Source: an uncultured Verrucomicrobiota bacterium
GTDB taxonomy: Bacteria; Verrucomicrobiota; Kiritimatiellia; Kiritimatiellales; Tichowtungiaceae
Reading direction: 5' to 3'
DNA length: 64,000 nucleotides
Assembly (NCBI GenBank): GCA_903831085.1
Contig: CAIKWE010000060.1
Span: 1 to 64,000, forward strand
Shown: positions 61-46,536 of the stretch, piece after piece
How the letters are laid out: every line of letters begins with the position of its first letter
Numbering within the stretch: position 1 is the first letter of the stretch
Program-made: the position numbers and the translations under genes
The notes under the pieces: generated by a model
Database searches by the model: none
What the model was told of the DNA's origin: nothing
The model's input: only the letters and a program-made list of their open reading frames with translations

Positions 61-185
61 CCTCTTAAAAACTATCCACAGGTGGGTTTTGTCTTTTGCG
101 ATTACGGAATCGTAATCAGGTTTGCTTGGATTTTTCGGAATATGCTGCGGTATTTTACCGGCAGAAAATAAGCATGGAGGTCATT

Positions 186-3100: not shown

Positions 3101-4229
3101 ATTCTATTATCCGAATCCTGTCCCCAACGAATTTTTCAGCGGAAGCACAAACGCCGATGTGTATCTGAGCGGCGGCGTGCGCGATGGTTATTATTCCTTC
3201 GAGTGGGGCGACGCATTGTTTATTGCGCTCGATCCGTACTGGTACACCTGTCCGGGCACTGCCAAATCGACGAATCAGTGGGCCTGGACGCTGGGCACCA
3301 ACCAATATCAATGGCTCAAGCGGACGCTCGAAATCAGCCCGGCGAAATACAAGTTTGTTTTCGCCCACAACCTGGTTGGCGGGGGAGGTAACATGGAGGC
3401 GAGAGGCGGGTTGACCTACGCCCCTTACTTTGAATGGGGCGGCAGGAATCTCGACGGCAGCTGGGGCTTCACAAACAACCGGCCGGGTTGGGATATGCCC
3501 ATTCAGAATCTGCTTCTTTCCAACGGGGTTAACGCCTTTTTCCACGGCCACGATCATCTCTTTGTGAAAGAGGATCTCGACATCAACGGCGATGGTGTCG
3601 CCGAGCTCATTTATCAGGAATGTCCACAACCCAGCCGCACGAACTATAATTCAACCGGCGCGGCGGCCGGCTACGGCTACACCAACGGCGTGCTGCAGGG
3701 CAATTCGGGATATCTGCGCGTTCAGGTGAATTCCACCAACGCGACAATTGATTATGTGCGTGTTTATCTGCCGGCGGATGAAACCTTAGGCAGAACCAAT
3801 CGCATGGTCACATACAGCTATTCGGTCTCCCCGCCCGCTACCGTCGGTGACGGGATTCCTAATTGGTGGCGTGCGCAGTATTTCGGCGGGAACGGCGCCT
3901 CGACCAACGATTCCTCCGGCTCATCCGGAGACCCCGATAACGACGGCATGAACAACTATGCTGAATACATCGCGGACACAAACCCGACGAACGGGTCTTC
4001 CCGTTTTAGTATTCAATCCCTTTCCGGCGGAACCAACCGGGCGGTGTTTTTCCAATCCTCGGCAAACCGCAAATACACCCTGTATTACTCGACCAATTTG
4101 ACCTCCGGAATCTGGACGAACCTTCCTTCGCAAACCGGCATCACCGGCAATGGCGGCGCGGACAAGCTCACCGATTCATTGCCCGCGGCCACGCCTTGCT
4201 TCTACCGGATCGGTGTCAGCCTGCCGTAA
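186..4229 (+). CDS. Secreted two-domain calcineurin-like phosphoesterase (PhoD/purple-acid-phosphatase style, A+B fusion)
   Basis: This 1347-residue exported protein has two metallophosphoesterase domains, each preceded by a fibronectin/PAP-N-like beta domain. A TTG start at 186 is preferred: GGAGG at 176-180 has good spacing and it opens directly into a signal peptide (MKTQIRHLGTVFILLLAGFAGA). Domain A (about 120-430) shows GDTHPE, GDDFS, GNHE, AHHVNG and QGHDH. Domain B (about 858-1140) shows ADPH, DLGDT, GNHD, AHNLVGG and HGHDH, so both keep the two-metal ligands. An Ig-like segment and a jelly-roll-like segment separate them (about 470-740). The C-terminus carries GDGIPNWW and the Ca-binding-like DPDNDGMNNYAEY, typical of secreted PVC proteins. 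The substrate cannot be read from the sequence; phosphomonoester or phosphodiester hydrolysis is inferred from the fold. It heads a run of co-directional genes reaching 8805. Confidence 0.85.
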   Translation: MKTQIRHLGTVFILLLAGFAGAQPFTGSIVLGRPTGHSITVSVLSSNDLQMVLEYGLAPGVYSNQTAVTNITAGLPLEVELTGLQTDTLYYYRLQCKGAGDPDYIADTVHTFRTQRSPGSTFTFCMHGDTHPERAGNMFNASLYTNTLTLAAADKPDFYMLIGDDFSVDNIPTNSINADLVTERYTLQRPWLGLVANSASLFLVNGNHEQAAQYLLDGTSNNIAVWAQNARNKYFPEPAPDGFYTGNTNVVEYIGLLRNYFAWTWGDALFVTIDPYWGSPTCPDNNYWTNEKRTNMWDVTLGDAQYQWLKKTLEESTAQFKFVFAHHVNGTGRGGVDIASLYEWGGRSGDGSWGFATNRPGWALPIHQLMATNRVTMFVQGHDHIFVREELDGVTYLTLPIPADNKYALYNADAFANAIYKTNNSGYVRFTVAPERVKVDYVRSYLPQDEGPGKTNGMVDYSFTLPTTADSNSPPAILSVTNTPAAPTSNDTVWVTASVTDDVSVAQVTLTYNTGAGASQTNTVFLETMASITNKPWTGSFCDKAWTVSFSGSNPFEQRGSANYGGGNTNGLSFKNGTTNLTDSMITTTGSLDAQGNSGFVEFWMQTLTLSNQLGNAGWTFQLNAGTGYVTRLSELISTNHTWKLYHYDLQSDELASNLTMRFQFRGGDTNNRVYLDQISLKVSSGGSSSTHVAMLDDGAHQDGTAGDSVYGAAIPAMPQGTTVNYYLTAFDGAGLSSVSPAGAPGNFYSYTVTNITVSPEPFSYDILLGQPTDHSIAVSVLSSYDLSAYVEYGNQPGGYTSQSVTNSIVAETPFVVTLDQLQADSPYYYRLRYRTTGETNFSVSAERTFHTQRAAGSPFTFIIEADPHYQDNDPPVWRLALTNMLADKPDFLIDLGDTFMGEKYYKTNSYTLSQAGIYETCKIVREQFFGVSGHSLPLFLVIGNHDPELGWLLDNNNPTSNPSVWGAQAREFYYPNPVPNEFFSGSTNADVYLSGGVRDGYYSFEWGDALFIALDPYWYTCPGTAKSTNQWAWTLGTNQYQWLKRTLEISPAKYKFVFAHNLVGGGGNMEARGGLTYAPYFEWGGRNLDGSWGFTNNRPGWDMPIQNLLLSNGVNAFFHGHDHLFVKEDLDINGDGVAELIYQECPQPSRTNYNSTGAAAGYGYTNGVLQGNSGYLRVQVNSTNATIDYVRVYLPADETLGRTNRMVTYSYSVSPPATVGDGIPNWWRAQYFGGNGASTNDSSGSSGDPDNDGMNNYAEYIADTNPTNGSSRFSIQSLSGGTNRAVFFQSSANRKYTLYYSTNLTSGIWTNLPSQTGITGNGGADKLTDSLPAATPCFYRIGVSLP

Positions 4230-4295
4230 CCAATTATCCATTTTCAGGTCTTTGATTAACACCGTGGAAAAAACGTGATAAAAAGGAAAACAGAA

Positions 4296-5885
4296 ATGAA
4301 AAAACGGATCGCCATTCTTCTGCTCATCGCGGGAACCTCGTTGGCCTACGAACGACTGCAAGGTCCGACTGAACTGCTTTTCTGCGATAAAGAGAAAGCG
4401 TTCAACGGCTACACTCTCTTTGGCGTCGGTAGCCGCAGCTACCTGCTCGATCTGGACGGACAGGTGGTTCACACCTGGCCCATCGGAACAAATCCGCATC
4501 TGCTGGACAACGGCAACATACTGGACGCCTCGAAAGATGACCCCAGCGGATTTAAAGGCTTCAAGGAGGTGGACTGGGACGGCAAGACCGTCTGGGAATA
4601 CACCGAGAAGCGTGAAGACTATGCTCCTCATCATGACTGGGTGCGCATCTTCAACAAGAAACTCAATGCGCCCACCACGCTTTACATCGCCAACAAATCG
4701 ATCTCGAATGAACAGGCCCTCGCCGCCGGTGCCGATCCGAAAAAGGGCCCATACGAAGGCGGCCAGATGGATGCCGTTGTCGAAGTGGACATGCAGGGTA
4801 ATGTGGTGTGGGAATGGTGGTTCTTTGATCACGTGGTGCAGGATGTTGACGCGGCGAAATCAAATTATGTCGGAACAGGCAAAACGGTCGCGAATTATCC
4901 CGGGCGCATTAACATCAACATGCCGGGGAAGCCGCTTAAGCGCGACTGGCTGCACTGCAATTCGATGGATTACAACGCGGAGTCCGGCCACATCGTGATC
5001 AACTCCGTGCAGGGCGAACTCTATGTGATCGATCACGACGGCACGTTCGTCGTCGGCGACGCGAAGGCGGGTATCGCCAAAGCCGCCAGTCCGGCGGGCG
5101 ATTTCCTTTATCGCTTCGGCGACCCGGCCCGCTATGCGCAGGGCGATCCGCCGAAGATTCTGGAAAACTGGGACTCGGCGACGTCCGGCCACAAGCAGAT
5201 GGGCGGCGCCCACGACGCGCACTGGATCCGCCCCGGCCTGCCCGGCGCGGGACATATCATGGTGTTCAACAACGGCCAGTATCTCTACCAGCGGACTCCG
5301 CAGTCGTCGGTTCTGGAGATCAATCCGTTCCTTGATGCGAACGGGAATGATACCGGAAAATATGTGAATCCGCCCGATGCGGGTTACCGGCGAGAAACTT
5401 ACGACAAGGACACGCACAACCAGCCCCGGCAGATTTCGAAGCAGGTCGTCTGGAGCTACCGGTCCGTCAACAGTCACGGATTTTTCAGTCATATCGGATC
5501 GAGCGGACAGCGTCTGGCGAATGGCGGCACGTTTGTCTGCTCCGACACCGAAGGGCACTTCTTTGAAATAACCGCCGACGGCAAGCTCGCCTGGGAATAC
5601 GTCAACCCCGTTACACGGGACGGCCCTGTGAAAGTGCTTGGCGACGCCCTTCCGATGGTCAACTCCGCGTTTCGCGCCTACCGTTATGCGACAAATCATC
5701 CAGCCTTCAAAGGGCGCGACTTAAAGCCGGCGGGCACAATCACCGACCGGGCCGCGCAGGGCGTGGATATCTATCGTAAGCCGAATCCGGCCGGAAAGGA
5801 TTCTCCCGGCGGCGGCAATGACCGCCGCGACCGCCGTGGCGGGAAACGCAATCCTCCAGACTCTGGAACGGACGATAAAAAATGA
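4296..5885 (+). CDS. Exported arylsulfotransferase (ASST)-family protein
   Basis: The product is 529 residues. A cleavable signal peptide (MKKRIAILLLIAGTSLA) supports the ATG at 4296 with AAGGAAA upstream, rather than the in-frame GTG at 4275. The body reads as an ASST-type beta propeller with repeated D-x-x-G-x-V-V/W blades (LDGQVVHTWP, WDGKTVWEY, MQGNVVWEWW) and conserved His-rich loops (HHDWVRI near 110, DWLHCNSMDYN near 217, GGAHDAHWIRPG near 303). Known ASSTs move sulfuryl groups between phenolic donors and acceptors in the periplasm without PAPS; the acceptor here is unknown. The C-terminal tail is short, basic and low-complexity. Its stop overlaps the next start (ATGA at 5882-5885), so it is co-translated with the phosphoesterases. 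The family call is firm but the activity is not. Confidence 0.8.
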   Translation: MKKRIAILLLIAGTSLAYERLQGPTELLFCDKEKAFNGYTLFGVGSRSYLLDLDGQVVHTWPIGTNPHLLDNGNILDASKDDPSGFKGFKEVDWDGKTVWEYTEKREDYAPHHDWVRIFNKKLNAPTTLYIANKSISNEQALAAGADPKKGPYEGGQMDAVVEVDMQGNVVWEWWFFDHVVQDVDAAKSNYVGTGKTVANYPGRININMPGKPLKRDWLHCNSMDYNAESGHIVINSVQGELYVIDHDGTFVVGDAKAGIAKAASPAGDFLYRFGDPARYAQGDPPKILENWDSATSGHKQMGGAHDAHWIRPGLPGAGHIMVFNNGQYLYQRTPQSSVLEINPFLDANGNDTGKYVNPPDAGYRRETYDKDTHNQPRQISKQVVWSYRSVNSHGFFSHIGSSGQRLANGGTFVCSDTEGHFFEITADGKLAWEYVNPVTRDGPVKVLGDALPMVNSAFRAYRYATNHPAFKGRDLKPAGTITDRAAQGVDIYRKPNPAGKDSPGGGNDRRDRRGGKRNPPDSGTDDKK

Positions 5886-7339
5886 AACAGGTCGGTCTGC
5901 TTGGAATTTTTCTGATCGCCGCGGTTTTTGCCACTCTCTTCGGTCGTTGCTCTGCGTTCGCAGAGCCTCTCTCGCTTCGCTCGGGTCCAATGGTTGGAAA
6001 CACGGCCGAGAAAGTTTCCACAGATCGGAAAGTCCGGAGCGGGAAGGACATCCCGCTGATGATGGAGGCCAGTCCGGCGTCGGAAGATTTCCGATGTTCG
6101 GAACTGCTGGCGTTTCCGACAGAAAGCTCCATTCAGATCCATCTGATTCCGCGGCACGACATGGCGCTGTCGGTGCGTTACGGGACAGAGGAAACGAAGC
6201 TTGATCAGAGCACGCCGTCCGAAACATTGCGCGGCGGCGAGGCACACATCGTCCGGCTCGAAAATTTAAAACCGGACACGGAATATTTCTACCGGATCGA
6301 GCGGGACGGAAAAGAGAACCCGGTTCGCCGGTTTCATACCGCCCGGCCTGCGGGAGCAACCTTCAGCTTCGCGGTGCAGGCCGACCCTCATCTGGATGGG
6401 AACTCCAGTCTGAGCGCTTATTCCAACACGCAGCAGAACATCGCTCAGGCTAAGCCCGACTTTCTGATCGATCTCGGCGACTCGTCGATGGTCGATAAGC
6501 TGCCCGAAAAAACCGATGAGGCCATCACGATCCGGAATCTGCTGATGCGAAACTGGTACGGGCAGATTGCGCACAGTATTCCTTTGTTCATGGCGCCGGG
6601 TAATCACGACGGCGAAAAAGGCGGGATGTTCGATGGTACCGATAAAAATCTCGGCGTTCGCTCCACGTTGATCCGCAAGCAATTCTATCCGGTTGCGCCG
6701 GACGCCTTCTACAGTTCTGCCGCGCCGGACGAAAAATTCTGCGGGACGGTGCGCAGTTATTACTCGTGGACATGGGGCGATGCGCTGTTCGTCGTGATCG
6801 ATCCGTACCGTTACGCCGCGCGGAACTCCGGTCGCAATTCCGGAGGCTGGGGGTTCACGCTTGGCGAAACGCAGTACCGCTGGTTGCGCGGCGTGCTGGA
6901 GAACAGCACGGCAAAATATAAATTCGTTTTCGGCCACCAGCTGGTCGGCGGCGACGAGCAGGGGCGCGGCGGCGTGGAGCGGGCGGATTTGTACGAATGG
7001 GGCGGGATCGGCGCGGACGGCACATATCAGTTCGACGAAAAACGTCCCGGCTGGGGCAAGCCGGTTCATCAACTGCTGGTGGATACTCATGTCACCGTAT
7101 ATTTCCACGGGCACGACCATTTTTATGCGCGGCAGGAAAAAGACGGCGTAATCTATCAGCTGGTGCCGCAGCCCGCTTCTGAAAGCGGGAAATCTCCCGG
7201 ACATGCCGCCGAATACGGTTACGTCGAGGGCGATGTGCGCGGCGGTTCCGGTTTTATGCTGGTGACGGTTTCTCCCGCCGGGTTTAACATACAATTCGTT
7301 CAGACCGAATCGCCGCGTAAGGGAGGAAGCAGCAAATGA
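5882..7339 (+). CDS. Exported calcineurin-like phosphoesterase, subtype B
   Basis: This 485-residue protein has an N-terminal export signal of about 27 residues. It then has a fibronectin-like domain (about 70-150) and a metallophosphoesterase domain with ADPH (about 166), DLGDSS (about 197), GNHD (about 239), GHQLVGG (about 350) and HGHDH (about 409). The motifs match the second domain of the protein at 186-4229, not its first. Start and stop overlap the neighbours by four bases on both sides (ATGA), so the three genes form a tight operon. The stretch just after the signal peptide (codons at about 5950-6000) is built from a perfect palindrome CTCTGCG-TT-CGCAGAG followed by TCCAA-TGG-TTGGA, so a repeat appears to have entered the mature N-terminus without breaking the frame. 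Confidence 0.85.
   Translation: MKQVGLLGIFLIAAVFATLFGRCSAFAEPLSLRSGPMVGNTAEKVSTDRKVRSGKDIPLMMEASPASEDFRCSELLAFPTESSIQIHLIPRHDMALSVRYGTEETKLDQSTPSETLRGGEAHIVRLENLKPDTEYFYRIERDGKENPVRRFHTARPAGATFSFAVQADPHLDGNSSLSAYSNTQQNIAQAKPDFLIDLGDSSMVDKLPEKTDEAITIRNLLMRNWYGQIAHSIPLFMAPGNHDGEKGGMFDGTDKNLGVRSTLIRKQFYPVAPDAFYSSAAPDEKFCGTVRSYYSWTWGDALFVVIDPYRYAARNSGRNSGGWGFTLGETQYRWLRGVLENSTAKYKFVFGHQLVGGDEQGRGGVERADLYEWGGIGADGTYQFDEKRPGWGKPVHQLLVDTHVTVYFHGHDHFYARQEKDGVIYQLVPQPASESGKSPGHAAEYGYVEGDVRGGSGFMLVTVSPAGFNIQFVQTESPRKGGSSK
5952..5998. repeat. Palindromic element inside a coding sequence
   Basis: A perfect 7-2-7 inverted repeat, CTCTGCG-TT-CGCAGAG, is followed about 20 bases on by the dispersed palindrome core TCCAA-TGG-TTGGA (5986-5998). 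Both lie in the first 40 codons of the phosphoesterase gene that starts at 5882 and are translated in frame. Confidence 0.6.
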
Positions 7340-8805
7340 ATAAACGGATTGTGATTTGTGCGGCGCTGTCTCTGCTGGTTTGTTGCAGTATGGCTCAGCA
7401 GCCGGGCGGCAAAAAAGAGAAGCGGGAAAAACCGGCCGGTAAACAAGGTGGCGGCGGCGGCAACCGCGGAGCTTATCCTCCTCCGGCGCAGGGGTGGAAG
7501 GTCGCGACGATTATTCTGGGCTGTCCCGAAAAAGACCGGATTACGATGAGCATCTATCCGGCAGACGATCTGGAAGGCTATATCGAATACGGCGGTAAAC
7601 AGACCGCCGTGCAGCCGTTTCCCGCGAAGACGCCGACGCAGTTGACGCTGACCGGACTTTCCGCCGATACGGAAACCACCTACCGGCTGCGCTACCGCAA
7701 TCCAGGTGAATCGGAATTCAAGACCGGTCCGGATTATAACTTCCATACATGGCGTGCGCCGGGCAGCCCGTTTGTTTTTGAGATTCAGGGCGATTCCCAT
7801 CCGGAGCGGATGGGGAAACAAAACGATCCGGTGCTGTACGAGCAGACGCTGCTGGCGGTTGCCAAGGATCGGCCCGACTTTTTCTTATGCATCGGCGACG
7901 ACTTCAGCGTCGATACGCTGCAGGACGTTAATGCGGCCACGGTCAGACAGGCCTATTTGAAACAACGGCCTTATTTCGGGCTGTTCGCGCACTCGACTCC
8001 GCTGTTTCTGGTGAACGGGAATCACGAACAGGCTTCGCGGGCCAATCTCGACGGCACGGCGGACAATGTCGCGGTCTGGGCGCAGAACAGCCGGAACAGC
8101 CTGTTTCCTCAGCCCGCGCCCGACAGCTTTTACAGCGGCGACAAAGAAGAGGTTGAGCACATCGGCCTGCTCCGCGACTACTATGCGTGGACATGGGGCG
8201 ATGCGTTGTTCGTGACGATCGATCCGTACTGGCATTCCGAGCAGGCGGTGGACAATAAATTCGGCGGCGGCGACAAGCGCCGCGATCTGTGGGATATCAC
8301 GCTCGGAGCCGCTCAGTACCAGTGGCTCAAGAAAACGCTCGAAGAGAGCACGGCGAAATACAAATTTGTTTTTGCCCACCACGTCAACGGCACGGGGCGC
8401 GGCGGTATAGAGAATGCAGGATTGTATGAGTGGGGCGGTAAAGGGCGCGGCGGACAATCCGAATTTAAAACCAAACGGCCGGGCTGGGAACTGCCGATTC
8501 ATCAGTTGATGGCCAAAAACAAGGTCACGATTTTCTTTCAGGGCCACGATCATATTTTCGTCCGGCAGAAGCTCGACGGCGTGATCTATCAAACTCTGCC
8601 GGAGCCGGGCGATTCCAACTATGCGCTGTATAACGCCGATGCCTATCAGAGCGGCGAGAAGTTTCCAAACTCCGGAAGAGTGCGCGTTTCCGTGGATCCG
8701 GAGAAAGTTCAGGTGGAATATGTCGCCTCTCGGCTTCCGAAGGATTCGACGGCGGAACATCCCGACGGAGAGATTATTTTTAAATATGATATATCTTCAC
8801 AATAA
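7336..8805 (+). CDS. Exported calcineurin-like phosphoesterase, subtype A
   Basis: The product is 489 residues. It has a signal peptide of about 21 residues, then a Lys/Gly/Pro-rich linker (about 24-47) that may span the envelope or bind polymer. A fibronectin-like domain and a phosphoesterase domain follow, with GDSHPE (about 152), GDDFS (about 186), GNHE (about 228), AHHVNGTGRGG (about 347) and QGHDH (about 402). It is strikingly similar to domain A of the protein at 186-4229; the block LKKTLEESTAKYKFVFAHHV, for instance, is nearly unchanged. The ATG overlaps the previous stop (ATGA). It ends the operon; no clear terminator follows within 150 bases. The substrate is unknown. Confidence 0.85.
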   Translation: MNKRIVICAALSLLVCCSMAQQPGGKKEKREKPAGKQGGGGGNRGAYPPPAQGWKVATIILGCPEKDRITMSIYPADDLEGYIEYGGKQTAVQPFPAKTPTQLTLTGLSADTETTYRLRYRNPGESEFKTGPDYNFHTWRAPGSPFVFEIQGDSHPERMGKQNDPVLYEQTLLAVAKDRPDFFLCIGDDFSVDTLQDVNAATVRQAYLKQRPYFGLFAHSTPLFLVNGNHEQASRANLDGTADNVAVWAQNSRNSLFPQPAPDSFYSGDKEEVEHIGLLRDYYAWTWGDALFVTIDPYWHSEQAVDNKFGGGDKRRDLWDITLGAAQYQWLKKTLEESTAKYKFVFAHHVNGTGRGGIENAGLYEWGGKGRGGQSEFKTKRPGWELPIHQLMAKNKVTIFFQGHDHIFVRQKLDGVIYQTLPEPGDSNYALYNADAYQSGEKFPNSGRVRVSVDPEKVQVEYVASRLPKDSTAEHPDGEIIFKYDISSQ

Positions 8806-30642: not shown

Positions 30643-31533
30643 ATGAATTCTGCGGGCAATATTTTGATTGTCGGATGTAACGGCCAGCTCGGCACGGACT
30701 GTATGTCGGTGTTGGGAAAAAAAGCCGTCGGAATCGATCTTCCCGACATAAATATCGCCGATCGTTTCCAATGTTTGGAAAAACTGGACGTGGTTGCTCC
30801 GGCGGTCATCGTGAATTGCGCGGCCTACACCGCTGTCGATGCCTGCGAAACCGATCCGGCCTGCTGGAAGGTGAATGCGGACGGCCCGAAACATCTGGCG
30901 GAGTGGGCCGCGCCCAACGGGGCGTTTCTGGTGCATGTCTCGACCGACTATGTTTTTGACGGGAATAAGCCCCTGTTTCAGGTTTATACCGAAACCGAAA
31001 ATCCTGCGCCGGTTTCCGAATACGGGAAATCCAAACTGGCGGGCGAGCAGGCCGTTCTGGAAAGCGGAGCAAATGCCGCCATCCTGCGCACGGCATGGCT
31101 CTACGGGGCGCACGGGAAAAATTTTCTGAAAACCATGCTGCGGCTGGCGTTGCAAAATCCGGAGCGCGGAATTCGTGTGGTGAACGATCAGTTTGGTTCG
31201 CCGACATGGTCGTACACGCTGGCGCGGCAGATCGCGGCGGTTGTTGATGCCAGAGCGACCGGCCTTTTCCACGCAACGTCGGAAGGGTATTGCAGCTGGT
31301 ACGATCTGGCCGGACGCTTTCTTCAACTGATGAACGTGCCGTATCGCATGGCGCCCTGCACAACAGCTGAATATCCGACGCCTGCAAGCCGTCCGAAAAA
31401 TTCCATTTTGGAAAACGTTGCATTGAAGCGGTTGGGGCTGAATGTTTTTGACAACTGGGAAACGGAACTGAAGCATTTCGTCAACGGACACCGCGCATCA
31501 TTGATCAGCGAGATAAAAGGATCACTGAAATGA
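30643..31533 (+). CDS. rmlD: dTDP-4-dehydrorhamnose reductase
   Basis: The 296-residue RmlD reduces dTDP-4-keto-L-rhamnose to dTDP-L-rhamnose. Marks are [11 protein letters not shown], the conserved [22 protein letters not shown] and [10 protein letters not shown] (Y-x-x-x-K). The ATG touches the preceding TAG. An exact TTCCAA-TGT-TTGGAA palindrome (30766-30780) is translated as part of RFQCLEKL, and the identical F-Q-C-L-E-K string appears in the product of the gene at 62267. It is followed with overlap (ATGA) by rmlB. Confidence 0.92.
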
Positions 31534-32582
31534 AAAAAATACTGGTGACGGGCGGAGCGGGGTTTATCGGTTCAGCGGTTTGCCGCTATCTGGTGAAAGA
31601 AAAAAACATCAGCGTGCTGAATGTCGACAAACTCACCTACGCGGGCAACACGGAATCGCTGAAGGAAATTGATCAAAGCCCGCTTTACCGGTTTGCGCAG
31701 GCGGATATTTGCGATCGGGAAAAAATCGCCGGACTTTTTGCCGCGTTTCAGCCGGACGCGGTGATGCATCTGGCGGCCGAGTCGCATGTAGATCGTTCGA
31801 TTGACGGGCCGGCGGCATTTATTGAAACCAATATCGTCGGCACCTATACGATGCTCGACTGCGTCCGTGAATATTGGAGCGGACTTTCCAATGATCGGAA
31901 ACAGGCGTTCCGCTTTCACCACATTTCAACGGATGAAGTGTACGGGTCGCTGGGAGACGAAGGATTTTTTCAGGAGACGACGCCTTATGATCCGCGCTCG
32001 CCGTATTCAGCGAGCAAGGCCTCCAGCGACCATCTGGTGATGGCTTGGCACCATACTTACGGCCTGCCGACGGTTATCACAAACTGTTCGAACAACTATG
32101 GCCCCTATCACTTTCCGGAAAAACTGATTCCGCTGGTGATCCTGAATGCTCTGGATCAAAAGCCGCTTCCAATCTATGGGAAGGGCGACAACATCCGAGA
32201 CTGGCTCTATGTGGAAGATCACGCCCGTGCGCTGGTTCTTGCCGTTGAAAAGGGCGTTCCCGGCGAAACCTATAACGTCGGCGGACGGAACGAGCGAACC
32301 AACCTCGAGGTGGTTGAAACCATCTGCAGAATTTTGGATGAACTGAAGCCGCGCCAGAACGGAACCTATAAAGATTTGATCACGTTCGTGAAAGACCGCC
32401 CCGGTCATGATCAACGCTATGCGATTGATGCAACCAAGCTTGAAACAGAGCTCGGCTGGCGCGCGCTAGAGGATTTCGACAGCGGTATCCGACGCACGGT
32501 ACAGTGGTATCTGGATAACGAGTGGTGGTGGGGCCCGATTCGTTCCGGCAAATATGCCGGTGAGCGGCTGGGGAAATCTTAA
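31530..32582 (+). CDS. rmlB: dTDP-glucose 4,6-dehydratase
   Basis: The 350-residue enzyme makes dTDP-4-keto-6-deoxyglucose, the branch point for rhamnose and for 4-amino-4,6-dideoxy sugars. It has [30 protein letters not shown], the catalytic [13 protein letters not shown] (Asp-Glu) and [11 protein letters not shown], and [12 protein letters not shown]. The start overlaps rmlD by four bases. It can supply both the rhamnose genes that surround it and the aminotransferase gene at 43.8 kb. Confidence 0.95.
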
Positions 32583-32602: not shown

Positions 32603-33484
32603 ATGAGAAAAGGAATCATTCTGGCTGGCGGATCGGGAACGAGGCTTCATCCCTTGACACGGGTGGTCAGCAAACAACTGCTGCCGGTTTACGATAAACC
32701 AATGGTCTATTATCCGCTGTCGGTTCTGATGCTGGCGGGGATTCGCGAAATCCTCATCATCAGCACACCACACGACCTGCCGATGTTCCGGGAGTTGCTC
32801 GGAAGCGGCGAGCAGTGGGGGCTCTCGTTCAGCTATGCCGAACAGCCGAAGCCCGAAGGATTGGCGCAGGCTTTTTTAATCGGCGAAAAATTTATCGGCA
32901 AAGACCCGGTGTGCATGGTGCTGGGCGATAATATTTTTTACGGACACGGCTTCGGCGGCATGTTGAAAAACGCGGACGAGCGCGTCGAGGGCGGAACCAT
33001 CTTTGCCTATCCGGTTCTCGATCCGGAACGCTACGGGGTCGTAGAGTTTGATTCAAACGGCAAGGCGCTGTCGATCGAGGAAAAGCCGACTAAGCCGAAA
33101 TCGCACTACGCTGTGCCGGGGCTCTATTTCTATGACAACCGGGTTGTTGAGATGGTCAAACACCAAAAACCTTCGGCACGCGGTGAACTGGAAATCACGA
33201 CGATCAATCAGCGGTATCTTGAAGCGGGCAAGTTGCATGTTGAAGTGCTGGGTCGCGGATTCGCCTGGCTGGACACCGGCACACACGAATCGCTGCAGCA
33301 GGCCGGGAGTTATGTGGAAACCATCGAAGCGCGGCAGGGGTTGAAAATCTCCTGCGTCGAAGAAATTGCCTGGCGGAAAGGATTTATCAACTCCGCACAG
33401 CTCGAAAAGCTCGGACGAGAACTCTCCAAAAACCAGTATGGGCAGTATCTTCTCCGGCTCCTTAAGGAAGGAAAAAACAGTTGA
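32603..33484 (+). CDS. rmlA: Glucose-1-phosphate thymidylyltransferase
   Basis: The 293-residue enzyme forms dTDP-glucose from dTTP and glucose-1-phosphate. [20 protein letters not shown] is the nucleotide loop; [11 protein letters not shown], with the metal Asp, and [12 protein letters not shown] are standard for RmlA. Spacing after rmlB is 20 bases with CGGAGG in front of the ATG. Confidence 0.95.
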
Positions 33485-38395: not shown

Positions 38396-40756
38396 ATGAG
38401 AGGGGTATCGTCCAATGTAAAATCCGAGGTGATCTCAACAATCGGCCGACGGCTGCTTCATCTCGGTGGCGCAGAGTTTCAGATTCCGGCGATCGAATGT
38501 GCAAAGAGCCTCGGGTGTTTTGTGATCACGGCCGACAACCAACCCGAAAATCCAGGGCACCGGCTGGCTGATCTTTATGTGAATGTCAGCACGGTCGACA
38601 AGGAAGCCATACTTGCTGTTGCCCGGCAGCATCGAATTGATGGGATTATGACTTATGGTTCCGATGTCGCTGCGCCAACCGTGAGTTATGTATCGGAAAC
38701 CCTTGGGCTGCCGGGGAATCCTTTGGCTGCAGCCACCGTGTTGCAACGGAAAGACCTGTTTCGCGCTTTCCAGCGGGAGTTGGGGCTGCCTCATCCCGAG
38801 TTCGTGTCCGTCTCTACGGCGGCAGAGGCTCAGGCAGCTTATCAGTTATTGAGCGGGGCTGTTGTTGTCAAGGCGGCAGATTCAAGCGGATCTAAAGGGC
38901 TTTCAGTGATTCATGATAAGCAGGAGGCCGCGACGGCCTTTCAGCGGGCGGGTAGCTTTTCTCGTTGCGGGATCGTGGTGCTGGAGCGGTTTTTGACGCC
39001 TGACATGTTCGAACTCGACGGGGATGTGCTGGTTAAAAACGGGAAACTGGCATTCCGACATTACGGGCACAATTACTTCACAAAACGAAATAAGTCGTTT
39101 GCTCCTTGCGGTGAGATATTTCCCGGCTTTTTCGGTGCGGACATTTCGGAGCAGTTGGATGAACAGCTGCAGAAGGTTATTACGGCTTTGAATATCTGTA
39201 CGGGCTGTATGAACTTTGACGCGATTGTTTCCGCAGGCCGGGTTCATTTGCTGGAGATAGGGCTTCGCAACGGTGGCAACTATGTGCCGCATCTTATTTA
39301 TCTGTCTACAGGGTATGACTTAACCCGCGCCGCCGTGCTTTCCGCTTTGGGTGCCGATGTGCGGTGCGACCGTCTGTCAGTTCCTGACGCTTTGCCGGTG
39401 GCTTCATACATCCTGAATTCAGACATTGAAGGGCGGTTTGAGGGATTCGACATATCTCCTGCCATCGAAAAATTTGTGGTCGGCAGTCGCTTGTTTTGTG
39501 AGATTGATTCGCACGTGCTGCCTTTCACCCGCGGGGATCGCGCTTTGGGCATCGTATTCCTCAAGTTTCCGGACAGGGAAACCATGAGCCGGATAACGGA
39601 AGAAATCGAGCAGCACATCTCCTTGCGGGTGCTCGCAGCGAATGTTGCGACCTCAACCGGCTCGGTTGATGGGGAAGTTCGTTATGATTATGTTCGGTAT
39701 TCCGAATTACTGTCACCTTTTCTGCGGCGCAAGTTAGCCGAGGCGGAACAGGCGGGGGACAAAACAGTTCAGCGCGTGCTCGGCCGGCAATTCATTGAAA
39801 CGCAGGCCGAGAAAGATGTTTTTTCTGGGGAAACCCAGAAACATTACGAGGCCGAGGTGAACAGCGTGTTTGAGGGCGTTCAGCTAAAGGGGGTTGAGCG
39901 GCTCTACGAGCGGGTCATCGTGGTGGAGCCGCTGCTCCAGTGCGTTGCGCATTGTCGGCACTGCCTGCGGCGATGTTATGAGCCGTTTCATTTGTCGCGG
40001 GAGGATCTGAGCCGCATTGCAAGGTTTATTGGCAAGGACCCGGCGAATGCAGCTTTGCGCGAGGTTTTGATCACCGGCGGAGATCCGTTCCTGATTCCCG
40101 ACCGGCTAAGCTATCTCCTCAACGAATTGGCCGAACATGCGCCGCAGATTCGGATCGCCCGGATCGCCTCCCGGCTTCCCGTTCAGCAGCCGGAGTGGGT
40201 CTCCGAAGCTTTACTTTCAGTTCTTGGCGGGCACTATCCGTTTCGAATTGAAGTGGCCACGCAAGTCAACCATGCGTCGGAGCTTTTTCCAGAGACTGTG
40301 ACAGCGTATGAGCGAATTCTGCGTGCGGTCAGGGTGGTTTATAATCAAAGTGTGATGTTGGCGGGTGTCAATGATACCCTCGACGAACTGGTCGACTTGT
40401 GCTACGCGTTGCGCGAGGTCGGGATTGAAAATCACTACATCTTTCATTGCGTACCCATTGCCGGCATTGCCTCGCAACGCGTTCCTCTGGAACGTATGCT
40501 TTTCTTGGTGAGTCAGCTTAGTTCGTGCGGACGGATTTCGGGACGGTCAAAACCTAAGCTCTGTGTCATGACGGACATAGGGAAAATTACCTTGTACGAC
40601 GGGGTTATCCTGAAAAGAGACAAAAACAGATACCTGCTCCAGTCTGGATACTTGCTGAAGGACCGCTTGAAGTGGAATCCCGGATGGGTGCTGCCGCAAA
40701 ACGCGGAAGTGGATGAGAACGGATATTTGAGGATATGGTATGTTGACATACTCTGA
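38396..40756 (+). CDS. ATP-grasp ligase fused to a lysine-2,3-aminomutase-type radical SAM domain
   Basis: The 786-residue protein combines two parts. Residues about 20-400 are an ATP-grasp ligase: pre-ATP-grasp LLHLGGAEFQIPAIECAKSL, VVVKAADSSGSKGLSVI as the grasp lobe, and MNFDAIVSAGRVHLLEIGLR with the Mg site. Residues about 480-760 are a radical SAM domain with C-V-A-H-C-R-H-C near residue 515 (C-x3-C-x2-C) and LITGGDPFL, the KamA-style SAM site. A late TDIGKITLYDG keeps the Lys that binds PLP in lysine 2,3-aminomutase (PGGGGK). It may make a beta-amino acid and ligate it to an acceptor; that is inference. GGGAG before the ATG at 38396 sets the start; a GTG 18 bases upstream is possible. 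Neighbours are a flippase-like protein and two polyprenyl-phosphate glycosyltransferases. Confidence 0.82.
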   Translation: MRGVSSNVKSEVISTIGRRLLHLGGAEFQIPAIECAKSLGCFVITADNQPENPGHRLADLYVNVSTVDKEAILAVARQHRIDGIMTYGSDVAAPTVSYVSETLGLPGNPLAAATVLQRKDLFRAFQRELGLPHPEFVSVSTAAEAQAAYQLLSGAVVVKAADSSGSKGLSVIHDKQEAATAFQRAGSFSRCGIVVLERFLTPDMFELDGDVLVKNGKLAFRHYGHNYFTKRNKSFAPCGEIFPGFFGADISEQLDEQLQKVITALNICTGCMNFDAIVSAGRVHLLEIGLRNGGNYVPHLIYLSTGYDLTRAAVLSALGADVRCDRLSVPDALPVASYILNSDIEGRFEGFDISPAIEKFVVGSRLFCEIDSHVLPFTRGDRALGIVFLKFPDRETMSRITEEIEQHISLRVLAANVATSTGSVDGEVRYDYVRYSELLSPFLRRKLAEAEQAGDKTVQRVLGRQFIETQAEKDVFSGETQKHYEAEVNSVFEGVQLKGVERLYERVIVVEPLLQCVAHCRHCLRRCYEPFHLSREDLSRIARFIGKDPANAALREVLITGGDPFLIPDRLSYLLNELAEHAPQIRIARIASRLPVQQPEWVSEALLSVLGGHYPFRIEVATQVNHASELFPETVTAYERILRAVRVVYNQSVMLAGVNDTLDELVDLCYALREVGIENHYIFHCVPIAGIASQRVPLERMLFLVSQLSSCGRISGRSKPKLCVMTDIGKITLYDGVILKRDKNRYLLQSGYLLKDRLKWNPGWVLPQNAEVDENGYLRIWYVDIL

Positions 40757-41841: not shown

Positions 41842-42792
41842 ATGAGTAAACCAGTCAAAATATCAGTAGTTTCCCCAGTCTACGGCAGCCCCGAAACGAT
41901 ACCGGTGCTGTGCGGGCGACTGCATAAATCATTGAGGAGTCTGACGGAAGATTATGAAATCATTCTGGTATTTGACTGCTCTCCCGACAACGGCTGGGAG
42001 CGGATTTGTGAGGAAGGCCAAAAGGACGCCCGTGTCAAAGGCATCAACCTCTCCCGCAACTTCGGACAGCACTACGCCATTATCGCCGGATTGACCTATG
42101 TCTCCGGGGAGTGGGTGGTGGTCATGGACTGCGACCTTCAGGACCCCCCGGAAGAAATCCCGGATCTCTACAAAAAAGCCCGAGAAGGATTTTCCGTGGT
42201 CTTTGCGCAACGGGTCGAACGAGAGGACTCCTGGCTTAAGCGGACGCAGTCCGCAATGTTCCACGCGGTCTTTGATTACCTCACGGATCGTAAGTCCGAT
42301 CCAAGCGTGGCGAATTTTGGAATTTATCATCAAAAAGTCATTCAGGCGGTTCTGGTATTCGGCGACAGTATTAAGTGCTTTCCTCTGATCGTATCCTATG
42401 TGGGATTTAAGACCGCCTATCTGCCGATTGCGCAGGCCTCTCGCGCGTCGGGCGAGTCATCGTACACGCTGGGCAAGGCGATACGGCTTGCCGTGGATCT
42501 CATGCTGGCTTACTCCAACAAGCCCTTGCGCATGTTCACGTCCGGCGGGTTTGTGGTGGTGGCAATATCACTTCTAGTTAGTATGTATTATTTAGTTTTA
42601 CACCTGTTGGGGAAAATCATGGTGTCCGGGTATGCAAGCTTGATTCTTTCCGTGTGGTTCATTGGCGGGATGCTGATGCTGCAAATTGGCGTCATCGGCG
42701 TGTACCTTGGGCGGGTTTTTAACCAGACAAAAAACCGCCCGAGTTTTGTGGTGGATGAAACCATCAATACGCGGGAGAAATCCGGTGAATAG
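41842..42792 (+). CDS. GT2 polyprenyl-phosphate glycosyltransferase (ArnC/GtrB-like), second copy
   Basis: The 316-residue protein has the same layout as its neighbour: VSPVYGSPETIPVLC, YEIILVFDCSPDNGWE, INLSRNFGQHYAIIAG and VMDCDLQDPPEEIP, and two C-terminal membrane helices. It matches ArnC more closely (DCDLQDPPE). The donor sugar is unknown; the aminotransferase nearby suggests a 4-amino sugar. It is followed with overlap by the acyltransferase gene (GTG at 42785, before this gene's stop). Confidence 0.87.
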   Translation: MSKPVKISVVSPVYGSPETIPVLCGRLHKSLRSLTEDYEIILVFDCSPDNGWERICEEGQKDARVKGINLSRNFGQHYAIIAGLTYVSGEWVVVMDCDLQDPPEEIPDLYKKAREGFSVVFAQRVEREDSWLKRTQSAMFHAVFDYLTDRKSDPSVANFGIYHQKVIQAVLVFGDSIKCFPLIVSYVGFKTAYLPIAQASRASGESSYTLGKAIRLAVDLMLAYSNKPLRMFTSGGFVVVAISLLVSMYYLVLHLLGKIMVSGYASLILSVWFIGGMLMLQIGVIGVYLGRVFNQTKNRPSFVVDETINTREKSGE

Positions 42793-43318
42793 AGCAGTTA
42801 TAGAAAAATACGGCATCAGGCTTCGGCGGTTGCGGCCGGAGGATCTTGAGTTGCTGCGCTATTGGCGCAATCAACCCAGGATCTCTCAATACATGAACTA
42901 TCGGGAATATATAACAGAAGAAATGCAGATCGCCTGGTTTAACCGGATCAACAAAGACCATAACTACTATTATATTGTCGAGTGGCAAAAAAGAAGCGTC
43001 GGCGTAATCAACATCAAGAACACAAGCGAAGCCGATAAAAGCGGCGAAGCCGGGGTGTTTTTCTGGGATAATGAGTGCCTTAATAGTGAGGTTCCTTTCC
43101 TGGCCTCTTTGGCTTTATATGATTTTACGTATGAAATATTAGGACTCAAATTTCTCTGGGCGCATATTTTACGAACTAATACGCGGACCATACGGTACAA
43201 CAAACACATGGGGTTCAAGTTGCAGCCGGGACAGGAAAATGTGGAAAACCAGCTTTACCGCCAAACCCGCGAGGATTACTTCCTGTGGCGAGACCGCGTG
43301 GCACCCTTGTTTGAGTGA
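42785..43318 (+). CDS. GNAT N-acyltransferase for an amino sugar (PseH/WecD-like)
   Basis: The 177-residue GNAT protein has LRPEDLELLRYWRNQPRISQ, typical of RimJ/RimL- and PseH-like enzymes, and an acyl-CoA site at the conserved V-G-V-I and G-F regions (IRYNKHMGFKLQ). The overlap of the GTG start with the preceding stop and the GGGAG before it support this start. Its place beside an aminotransferase and polyprenyl glycosyltransferases suggests N-acylation of a 4-amino-4,6-dideoxyhexose, but the acyl group is unknown. Confidence 0.8.
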   Translation: MNRAVIEKYGIRLRRLRPEDLELLRYWRNQPRISQYMNYREYITEEMQIAWFNRINKDHNYYYIVEWQKRSVGVINIKNTSEADKSGEAGVFFWDNECLNSEVPFLASLALYDFTYEILGLKFLWAHILRTNTRTIRYNKHMGFKLQPGQENVENQLYRQTREDYFLWRDRVAPLFE

Positions 43319-43739: not shown

Positions 43740-43754
43740 TATTTGCGAGGCCCT

Positions 43755-44900
43755 ATGAGCACTAAAATTCCTTTCAATAAGCCGTTTATTATCGGCAAAG
43801 AGCTGGAGTATATCACTCAGGCGGTGGAGCTGGGCCATTTGTCCGGTGACGGCCAGTTCACTAAAAAATGCCATGCCTGGATGGAGCAGAAGTTTGGTGC
43901 GGAAAAAGTGCTGCTGACCCATTCCTGCACCGCGGCGCTCGAGATGGCGGCTATTCTGGCAGATATTCGGCCCGGCGATGAGGTGATTCTTCCGTCCTAT
44001 ACCTTTGTTTCGACCGCCAATGCCTTTGTTCTTCGCGGCGCTGTGCCGGTTTGGTGTGATATTCGGCAAGACACCTTGAATATCGACGAGACGAAAATTG
44101 AGGCCCTGATTACTAAAAAGACCAAAGTCATTGTGCCGGTGCATTATGCAGGAGTCGGTTGCGAAATGGATACGATTATGGAAATCGCCGGGCGGCACAA
44201 TCTGCTGGTGATTGAGGATGCGGCACAGGCGGTCAACGCCACTTACAAAAGTCGCTATCTCGGCACCATTGGGCATTTTGGGTGCTATAGCTTTCATGAA
44301 ACCAAAAACTTTATTTCCGGCGAAGGCGGCGCACTGGTTATTAACGACGCCCGGTTTGTCGAACGGGCCGAAATTATCCGGGAGAAGGGCACTAACCGGG
44401 CCAAGTTTTTCCGGGGACAGGTGGATAAATATACCTGGGTGGATTGCGGCTCCTCGTTTCTTCCCTCCGAGCTGACCGCCGCCTTCTTGTATGCCCAACT
44501 CGAAGAGGCGGAGAATATCAGTCAAAGGCGGCTAACTATCTGGAATGCTTATCGCCAAGGGTTAAAACCGCTGGAAGATGCAGGGCGGTTGAGACTCCCG
44601 GTTATTCCGTCGCACTGCGGACACAACGCCCACATGTTCTACATCATTCTGCCGACGGCGGAACGGCGGGATGCGCTGATGGCCGCCCTGAAAGAGCAGG
44701 ATATCCTCTCGGTGTTTCACTACATTCCATTGCACACCGCGCCGATGGGAAGCAGAGTTCAGCCCGCCGTGCCCGAACTGCCGGTTACTGAAGAGATTGC
44801 CCCGCGCCTTCTGCGCCTGCCGATGTTTTTTGAACTGACACGAGCGGAGCAGGAGACCATCTGCGCAGCGATTTGTCGATGGGAGTCCGCTGATGTTTAA
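43755..44900 (+). CDS. PLP aminotransferase for dTDP-4-amino-4,6-dideoxyhexose (RffA/WecE-like)
   Basis: The 381-residue DegT/DnrJ-family enzyme opens with IPFNKPFIIGKELEYITQAV, characteristic of RffA/WecE. PLP-binding features are EDAAQAV and the catalytic Lys in CYSFHETKNFISGEGGAL (T-K). The likely reaction is glutamate-dependent amination of dTDP-4-keto-6-deoxyglucose, giving dTDP-Fuc4N. The substrate can come from rmlAB in the same locus. Together with the GNAT gene at 42785 this makes an N-acyl-Fuc4N-type donor plausible. The start at 43755 avoids four extra in-frame residues from a TTG. Confidence 0.85.
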   Translation: MSTKIPFNKPFIIGKELEYITQAVELGHLSGDGQFTKKCHAWMEQKFGAEKVLLTHSCTAALEMAAILADIRPGDEVILPSYTFVSTANAFVLRGAVPVWCDIRQDTLNIDETKIEALITKKTKVIVPVHYAGVGCEMDTIMEIAGRHNLLVIEDAAQAVNATYKSRYLGTIGHFGCYSFHETKNFISGEGGALVINDARFVERAEIIREKGTNRAKFFRGQVDKYTWVDCGSSFLPSELTAAFLYAQLEEAENISQRRLTIWNAYRQGLKPLEDAGRLRLPVIPSHCGHNAHMFYIILPTAERRDALMAALKEQDILSVFHYIPLHTAPMGSRVQPAVPELPVTEEIAPRLLRLPMFFELTRAEQETICAAICRWESADV

Positions 44901-46536
44901 AAAGTACGGAACACCATTGTTTTGGTTGTTTTGTGTGATACTTGCCGCATCACGCTTTATCGGCCTTGGATTTGCGCCTCTTCGTTATGATGAGTCGCAT
45001 CAATTGATTCGTGCCGCTGATTGTGTTGAGAAAATGAATAGGGATTTAGGAGGCCTGCAGGCGGTCTTTAGTGACCCATCAATAATATTCCATGCCTTAT
45101 CTGTCAGCCTCTTCGGAGCGACCGAATTTGCGACACGCTTGCCCGTGGTTATTCAGGGACTGTTTATCTGTTTGTTTGCCTACTTCACCGCCCGGCGTTT
45201 CGTTGGGGAGAAAGAGGCCCGCTGGATCTTGCTGGTTTCAATGATCCTGCCCTTCATCTTTGCATACTCGAGGTATGCGCAATACGATATTGGGCAAACC
45301 TTTTATTTTACCATGGGTTTGTACGCGCTGTTCTGCTGGATATTTGATCAGAAATCCTGGGGGCGCTGGTGTGCGCCGGCATTATTCGCTCTGGCTTTCC
45401 TTTCCAAATATAATGCGATCATAATGCAAGGGGTCGTGTTGGGATCCTATCTGTTATGCGGGTTGAGGCAGAAATCTAGATGGTGGGCGTGCATCGAAAA
45501 TGTTTTTTTAACCGGTATTTTCATTTTGTTATTCTCCTTAAATCAGCTTTCTGAGTTTATCGCTGATTTGTTGGGATGGGTGTCGGTGCTTTTTTCCAGT
45601 AGGAATGAAACCGTGGCGTTGGGGATGGGAAATTCAATTTTAACCGTTTTTGGCTACCATTTTATTGCATTCTCCGGGCTGTTTTTTATTGCGGTCATCT
45701 GGGGGCTGGTTCGTCTAAAAAAACAGAGTGAGCCGTTAAGAGTCATTATTCTGACCGTTTTGTTTTACCTTGTGGCGGTTGCTCTTCAGGGACGGGTGCA
45801 GATGCGCTATTTGTGCCTGATAATTGCGCCGGGTTCTGTTCTGGTTGGATTGGCTCTGATGAAACTGGCAGAGATGAAGCGCGTCTGGGCCTGGGTATTG
45901 ATTGGACTGTCAGCCGGGCAGTGCGTGTATGAGTATGGCTGTTATTACGCCTTTGAAACCGCCGGGGTTCCTTACAGAGAGGTGCGCATCGAGCTGGAGA
46001 AATTGGAAAAGGAGGCCTCAGCGATTTATCTGCCTGTAAATTTTCCGTTAAATTACGCAGGAATTTATCAGTTGGAGTTCATGGCCGCAATGGACGGCGT
46101 GAAGGATTCTCAAAAAGCGAAAGTGTATCACATTGATCTGCATCCGCTTCCGTATGCAGAGGTGGCGACCTATAATTATCCGAGTCGATTGAGACTCCAG
46201 CAAGTCATCCAGACACTCCCTTTTGTTTTTAAAGATCAAGGGGTGGCGGGTGTTCGTGATGCGGGATTGTCTTTTGTCGAAAGCGAGAGGCGGGGAAAAC
46301 CAAAAAGGGAGAGCCTCTCTCTGGAGCAGTTTTTCGAGGATTCCCGCATTTCTGAAAATGCATATTTTCTAAAAATGGAGCAGGCCCTTCCCATGTATCC
46401 CGATCTAACCTCCTTGATCCGATTTGATGCCGAGGAGGTCGGGTGCAGTGAAAATGTGAGACGGGTGTTTTACTTTTCGGCACGGAATGTTCCGTGTGCG
46501 GTTTTGTATAGTAAGAAAAAAACAGGTGGAACTTGA
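44893..46536 (+). CDS. ArnT-like polytopic glycosyltransferase (PMT superfamily)
   Basis: The 547-residue membrane protein has about ten helices and an early extracytoplasmic Asp-Glu (GFAPLRYDESHQLIRAAD), the catalytic position of GT39/GT83 enzymes such as PMT and ArnT, followed by an acidic-rich periplasmic loop. A soluble C-terminal domain of about 150 residues follows. It should transfer a sugar from a polyprenyl-phosphate carrier to lipid A, a glycan or a protein. Its place next to the half-SMR genes and polyprenyl-phosphate glycosyltransferases supports an Arn-like modification route. The start overlaps the aminotransferase gene by eight bases. Confidence 0.8.
   Translation: MFKKYGTPLFWLFCVILAASRFIGLGFAPLRYDESHQLIRAADCVEKMNRDLGGLQAVFSDPSIIFHALSVSLFGATEFATRLPVVIQGLFICLFAYFTARRFVGEKEARWILLVSMILPFIFAYSRYAQYDIGQTFYFTMGLYALFCWIFDQKSWGRWCAPALFALAFLSKYNAIIMQGVVLGSYLLCGLRQKSRWWACIENVFLTGIFILLFSLNQLSEFIADLLGWVSVLFSSRNETVALGMGNSILTVFGYHFIAFSGLFFIAVIWGLVRLKKQSEPLRVIILTVLFYLVAVALQGRVQMRYLCLIIAPGSVLVGLALMKLAEMKRVWAWVLIGLSAGQCVYEYGCYYAFETAGVPYREVRIELEKLEKEASAIYLPVNFPLNYAGIYQLEFMAAMDGVKDSQKAKVYHIDLHPLPYAEVATYNYPSRLRLQQVIQTLPFVFKDQGVAGVRDAGLSFVESERRGKPKRESLSLEQFFEDSRISENAYFLKMEQALPMYPDLTSLIRFDAEEVGCSENVRRVFYFSARNVPCAVLYSKKKTGGT

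Follow-up and report, generated by a model that had tools for sequence, protein, structure and literature searches.

The stretch of DNA analysed here (64,000 nucleotides, hereafter the window) encodes a protein in which an ATP-grasp ligase is fused to a KamA-type radical SAM aminomutase, and at least three such fusions are now known (in the window and in loci L046 and L210). This protein is probably a two-step enzyme, by which a beta-amino acid would be made and then joined through an amide bond to a 4-amino sugar nucleotide for a surface glycan.

A recurrent fusion among sugar-nucleotide genes

The fusion, 786 residues long, is encoded by a single frame, which starts with the ATG at 38396 and runs without interruption; an AGGGAG resembling a ribosome-binding site lies upstream. 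The following features were assigned in the locus:

31530..32582, + strand: RmlB-type dTDP-glucose 4,6-dehydratase, read from the translation; as a query it recovers co-located rmlB-like genes
32603..33484, + strand: RmlA-type glucose-1-phosphate thymidylyltransferase, 63% identical to the NTP_transferase protein adjoining the fusion of L046
37296..38342, + strand: flippase-like membrane protein (TIGR00374, 67.5 versus 43.2 bits; PF03706)
38396..40756, + strand: fusion gene, ATP-grasp ligase and KamA-type radical SAM aminomutase; frame intact, full-length homologues in L046 and L210
40877..41806, + strand: GT2, ArnC/PgfS-like polyprenyl-phosphate glycosyltransferase, below cut-offs
41842..42792, + strand: GT2, ArnC/PgfS-like polyprenyl-phosphate glycosyltransferase, below cut-offs
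42791..43318, + strand: PseH-like GNAT N-acetyltransferase (TIGR03585, 73 bits, below the cut-off of 93)
43743..44900, + strand: WecE, dTDP-4-amino-4,6-dideoxygalactose transaminase (NF008687, 629 versus 375 bits; TIGR02379, 599 versus 435 bits)
44893..46536, + strand: PMT-like membrane glycosyltransferase (PF13231)

In a GTDB scan with one genome per species and an alignment as query, a full-length homologue with 49% identity was detected in a Melioribacter MAG (L046), and a class-level search recovered another with 46-47% identity in G834, a genome of the window's own genus (L210). As the fusion is present in two more genomes it is no assembly artefact, and a chance fusion was ruled out by the same full-length homologues. 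The frame, the domain matches described below and the two homologues confirm the fused protein that a preliminary description had read from the sequence. The fusion is rare, being found in 2 of 43 genomes of the window's order (the window's own counted) and in one of 396 genomes sampled from the Melioribacter phylum. No match was obtained when genome contigs were scanned with the window protein alone as query, nor in a viral scan with an alignment of two fusions.

The neighbours named in the preliminary description were recovered, with the flippase-like gene before the fusion and the two ArnC/PgfS-like GT2 genes (both below cut-offs) after it. WecE, the likely supplier of the acceptor amine, is encoded four genes downstream of the fusion and is not adjacent to it. 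In L046 the gene order is rmlA, a WecF-like GT56 gene (Fuc4NAc transferase) and the fusion, and WecE is present in this genome on a different contig. In L210 the fusion lies between PseG (over cut-off) and PseI/NeuB, and occupies the slot in which one might look for PseH. G834 was searched for PseH without a match at 1e-5, whereas the same search was positive in 12 of 14 control genomes; the absence of PseH is nevertheless unproven because G834 is only 87% complete. PseC-like matches in this genome were below cut-off. The proposed search for other fusions near glycan genes has yielded L046 and L210, both among sugar-nucleotide genes. All three fusion contexts concern 4-amino-4,6-dideoxy sugars, which supports, by inference, the transfer of an aminoacyl group to an amino sugar.

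Stand-alone relatives of the ATP-grasp half are likewise found near sugar aminotransferases. A DegT aminotransferase lies within five genes in 58 of 78 such loci, counts that are not independent because several of the loci come from related species. Its position peaks directly upstream of the ligase (20/74, 27%) and beyond five genes the count is close to zero. None of the 78 relatives proved to have a stand-alone KamA gene nearby, so the two clades were not encountered as a split ATP-grasp/KamA pair. Some stand-alone ligases adjoin a conserved protein of ~310 residues (L025:8364-9281, L027:8448-9392, L028:8587-9555 and L031:8392-9339), which contains IGGYFELE, carries an SPRKFFG motif and resembles PLP fold-type I; its L025 copy has no Pfam match. 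On a Brachyspira hyodysenteriae plasmid (L043), a stand-alone relative directly follows a radical SAM/SPASM protein in a glycan locus with several other ATP-grasp amidoligases.

Active sites of the two halves

Within the fusion gene, the halves and their motifs were located as follows:

38396..39640, + strand: ATP-grasp half, residues 1-415, carboxylate-amine ligase type (family matches, model, Foldseek)
39701..40753, + strand: KamA-type radical SAM/PLP aminomutase half, residues ~436-786, with a subfamily-specific C-terminal extension (families, model)
39941..39964, + strand: CxxxCxxC [4Fe-4S] motif, C516/C520/C523, invariant in alignments A4, A8 and A10
39968..39970, + strand: R525, in the place of the Arg that binds the carboxylate in lysine 2,3-aminomutase, invariant in A4, A8 and A10
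40076..40087, + strand: GGDP SAM-binding motif, residues 561-564, invariant in A4 and A10
40583..40585, + strand: K730 (in MTDIGKIT), which corresponds to the PLP lysine and does not vary in A4 or A8

Residues 1-415 match Pfam PF02222 (9.8e-6), ATPgrasp_N (4.3e-5) and a PurT-like NCBIfam family (1e-16) as well as the structures 4dim (4e-18) and 3vot, an L-amino acid ligase (1e-8); the PF02222 score of 25.8 bits does not reach the gathering cut-off of 27. The LAL_C2 domain of Pfam is absent. In the full-length model most of residues 20-400 have a pLDDT above 90, and Foldseek returned 4dim (1.7e-27), the L-amino acid ligases 3vot and 4wd3, and PurT among the top matches. K159, E197, N273, R291, G293 and G294 are invariant in an ATP-grasp alignment of 32 rows. 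The family matches, the modelled fold and these residues bear out a complete N-terminal ATP-grasp ligase, as had been claimed earlier, and the half is predicted to be of the type that joins carboxylates to amines. In the linker and the radical SAM half, where the alignment is thin, the full-length model is of low quality, and the mutual placement of the halves was left uninterpreted.

Residues ~460-725 match the KamA families TIGR03822 (1e-34), TIGR00238 (4e-33) and EpmB (3e-32), the glutamate, arginine and lysine 2,3-aminomutase families (1e-30 to 6e-32) and the structure of lysine 2,3-aminomutase, 2a5h (1e-23). The TIGR00238 score of 114.7 bits misses the cut-off of 199.2, and the half is therefore termed KamA-type and not a TIGR00238 member; the lysine 2,3-aminomutase and EpmB equivalogs are not reached either (106.5 versus 525 and 111.7 versus 369 bits). 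Since the window protein falls below every curated cut-off in both halves, it counts as divergent within each family. Modelled alone, the radical SAM half reached a pLDDT of 89.7 and showed the lysine 2,3-aminomutase fold, with 2a5h by far the best Foldseek match (2.8e-20, probability 1.00, TM 0.65, rmsd 8.9; next fold 6.5e-6).

The C-x3-C-x2-C and GGDP motifs and the PLP lysine of IGKIT, all pointed out in the preliminary description, were found to be conserved: C516, C520, C523 and K730 do not vary across the 28 rows of a KamA alignment, G561-P564 is kept in the alignments, and neither the PLP lysine nor an Fe-S ligand has been lost. In lysine 2,3-aminomutase the residue equivalent to R525 binds the carboxylate. 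Asp293 and Asp330 of that enzyme, which in the 2a5h work reportedly bind the epsilon-ammonium group of the lysine side chain, correspond to V686 and M725. Because both aspartates are replaced, by Val and Met, lysine appears an unlikely substrate of the radical SAM half. Function as lysine 2,3-aminomutase or EpmB was ruled out by these side-chain residues together with the equivalog cut-offs.

A radical SAM subfamily in bacteria and phage

Phylogenetic analysis placed the radical SAM half in a separate clade supported 100/100, with the arginine 2,3-aminomutase BlsG outside. This subfamily has seven members, the three fusions on one side of the tree and four stand-alone proteins on the other (L141, L226, L229 and L230). 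L141 is a phage contig with a topoisomerase (PHROG 543) and PHROG 877, and its protein shares 39-40% identity, C-terminal extension included; L226, L229 and L230 are bacterial. All seven members, from several lineages, keep the catalytic residues, and all have Val/Ile and Met at the positions of Asp293 and Asp330. The subfamily can be recognised by the signature HY[ED]A ... CRxCLR ... FHxxPxxG ... MTxxGKI ... NPxW/Y.

In each of the seven, an enzyme of a carboxylic-acid-activating type is fused to the aminomutase or encoded next to it. The aminomutases of L229, L230 and L141 adjoin a PaaK-like adenylate-forming ligase and an LpxD-like sugar N-acyltransferase, which is thus present near three of the four stand-alone members (first LpxD-like protein of L230: 250.6 versus a cut-off of 207, NF002060), and a PIG-L deacetylase is encoded near the aminomutase in L230 and L141. 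In L226 the neighbours are an adenylation domain and, after it, a short frame resembling a carrier protein, for which no Pfam match was obtained, beside genes read as flhA/flhF. We give even odds to the reading that this KamA subfamily, represented by the radical SAM half, is devoted to the beta-aminoacylation of amino sugars in the surface glycans of bacteria, and also in phage.

The phage operon (L141:2627-8415, IMGVR_UViG_3300029305_001653) comprises a YfbR-like HD protein, PIG-L, an LpxD-like hexapeptide protein, the PaaK-like ligase, the aminomutase and a glycosyltransferase-like protein, and looks like a phage-borne pathway for amino-sugar beta-aminoacylation. The presence of the same subfamily in phage points to modification of glycans or other sugars by phages. 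Bacterial operons of like design are present at L230:5584-10505 and L229:6488-11309 (with PIG-L, a PaaK-like ligase, one or two LpxD-like acyltransferases and the aminomutase); the literature covered yielded no description of them. KamA-type proteins outside the subfamily (27-28% identity) are encoded by large phages, namely Vibrio phage GR11A (L224) and the Pseudomonas putida phages PP496436-PP496444.

Proposed reaction, alternatives and related systems

From the fusion loci and the conserved residues we infer two reactions in the following order. In the first, the C-terminal half would act as a PLP/radical-SAM 2,3-aminomutase and transfer the alpha-amino group of a free amino acid, whose side chain is probably neutral, to the beta position. 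In the second, the ATP-grasp half would activate the resulting beta-amino acid as an acyl phosphate and form a beta-aminoacyl amide on the 4-amino group of the acceptor, which, judging by the fusion loci, is most likely a nucleotide-linked 4-amino-4,6-dideoxyhexose. This would be dTDP-Fuc4N, provided by RmlA, RmlB and WecE, in the window and a pseudaminic-acid precursor in L210, and the modified sugar would then be transferred to a polyprenyl-linked glycan. The fusion would thereby stand in for an N-acetyltransferase of the type of WecD (Fuc4N pathway) or PseH (pseudaminic acid pathway), with which it would share the acceptor amine and the pathway position, whereas WecD and PseH are acetyl-CoA-dependent GNAT enzymes unrelated to it in sequence. 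The catalytic residues of both half-reactions are retained in the three fusions, and O-antigens carry aminoacyl groups on 4-amino-4,6-dideoxyglucose (PMC3210612). The earlier proposal that a beta-amino acyl group is made and attached to an amino sugar is thus supported, as a reading of the three fusion loci and the DegT neighbours (58/78), with the refinement that lysine is unlikely to be the amino acid. Against it, the ATP-grasp half could link the beta-amino acid to another amine, and the PseH-like GNAT of the window could itself acylate Fuc4N.

The order of the two steps might be reversed, such that an alpha-amino acid is first ligated to the sugar amine and the bound residue is then rearranged by the radical SAM half. 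The fused form would suit such on-site processing, and stand-alone ATP-grasp relatives without a KamA neighbour must use another acid; however, the invariant carboxylate-binding R525 suits a free amino acid and the stand-alone aminomutase sisters adjoin carboxylate-activating enzymes, which leaves this order improbable. Equally improbable in our view is the formation of a small beta-amino-acid dipeptide or other amide, with the glycan location secondary. L-amino acid dipeptide ligases are among the top fold matches, and on Rhizobium plasmids KamA occurs together with LAL_C2 ATP-grasp ligases in non-glycan loci, but all three fusions lie among sugar-nucleotide genes, the window ligase lacks LAL_C2, and sugar aminotransferases are frequent neighbours of its close relatives.

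The replacement of both lysine-recognising aspartates throughout the subfamily, together with the sugar context, would also fit a radical SAM half that shifts or removes the 4-amino group of a nucleotide sugar, as DesII does in deoxysugar pathways, with the ATP-grasp half acylating separately. We consider this quite unlikely, since the carboxylate Arg and the PLP Lys are retained in every member of the subfamily, which pairs with carboxylate-activating enzymes. A radical SAM half that has degenerated, or that has a structural role at most, would make the protein merely an alpha-aminoacyl ligase; this is very hard to reconcile with the retention of every catalytic residue in all seven subfamily members across several lineages, even though ATP-grasp relatives without a radical SAM half exist.

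In the Rhizobium and Sinorhizobium plasmid loci (L040, L041, L042, L221 and L222), KamA has one or two LAL_C2 ATP-grasp ligases as neighbours, and some of the loci also encode ectB and an aspartate-semialdehyde dehydrogenase; they represent a probable beta-amino acid peptide pathway.

The preliminary description knew of no system of this shape, but the two-step logic favoured here has a precedent, as blasticidin S clusters pair the same enzyme types encoded by separate genes. In blasticidin S, beta-arginine is amide-linked to a 4-amino sugar, and BlsI has a role in the pathway. In the Kitasatospora cluster (L220), blsG (arginine 2,3-aminomutase), a DegT aminotransferase and an ATP-grasp ligase lie in a row, so that a KamA aminomutase, a sugar aminotransferase and an ATP-grasp ligase share one locus, as the fusion and WecE do in the window, and the product carries beta-arginine (PMC5572114). 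This product is a nucleoside antibiotic and not a glycan; the Kitasatospora ligase has LAL_C2, unlike the window ATP-grasp, to which it is 24% identical over 237 residues, and BlsG (29% identity) falls outside the fusion clade.

Lysine 2,3-aminomutase (2a5h), EpmB and glutamate 2,3-aminomutase share the fold, CxxxCxxC, GGD, the carboxylate Arg and the PLP Lys with the radical SAM half, which differs from lysine 2,3-aminomutase and EpmB in V686/M725, the additional C-terminal extension, the fused ligase and scores far below the equivalog cut-offs. Pyrrolysine biosynthesis resembles the fusion in that a radical SAM mutase (PylB) is followed by an ATP-grasp amide ligase (PylC), but PylB is not a PLP-dependent KamA enzyme and the product is an amino acid. 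In incednine biosynthesis, the KamA-type IdnL4 is the likely source of a beta-amino acid that passes to an adenylation enzyme and an ACP (PMC11284099). This arrangement resembles L226, with its adenylation domain, small ACP-like frame and KamA protein, but serves a polyketide starter unit instead of sugar acylation and contains no ATP-grasp enzyme.

As far as the literature was searched, the fusion, its glycan setting and the radical SAM subfamily are new, while the logic is already known from blasticidin S; no description of the fusion, the glycan version or the subfamily was found in the papers covered, which include few subscription papers and are weak evidence on this point. We know of no dedicated pathway for beta-aminoacyl modification of glycans. 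If the proposed function holds, surface glycans would join primary metabolism, EF-P and antibiotics as settings of radical aminomutase chemistry, a single chain would both make a beta-amino acid and couple it to an amino sugar, and a genetic signature would be available for locating beta-aminoacylated sugars, which are chemically unusual and possibly charged epitopes.

Elsewhere in the window, positions 96-8805 encode a run of related secreted metallophosphatase-like proteins, with several copies of the same type of domain, followed by sulfatase-like proteins.
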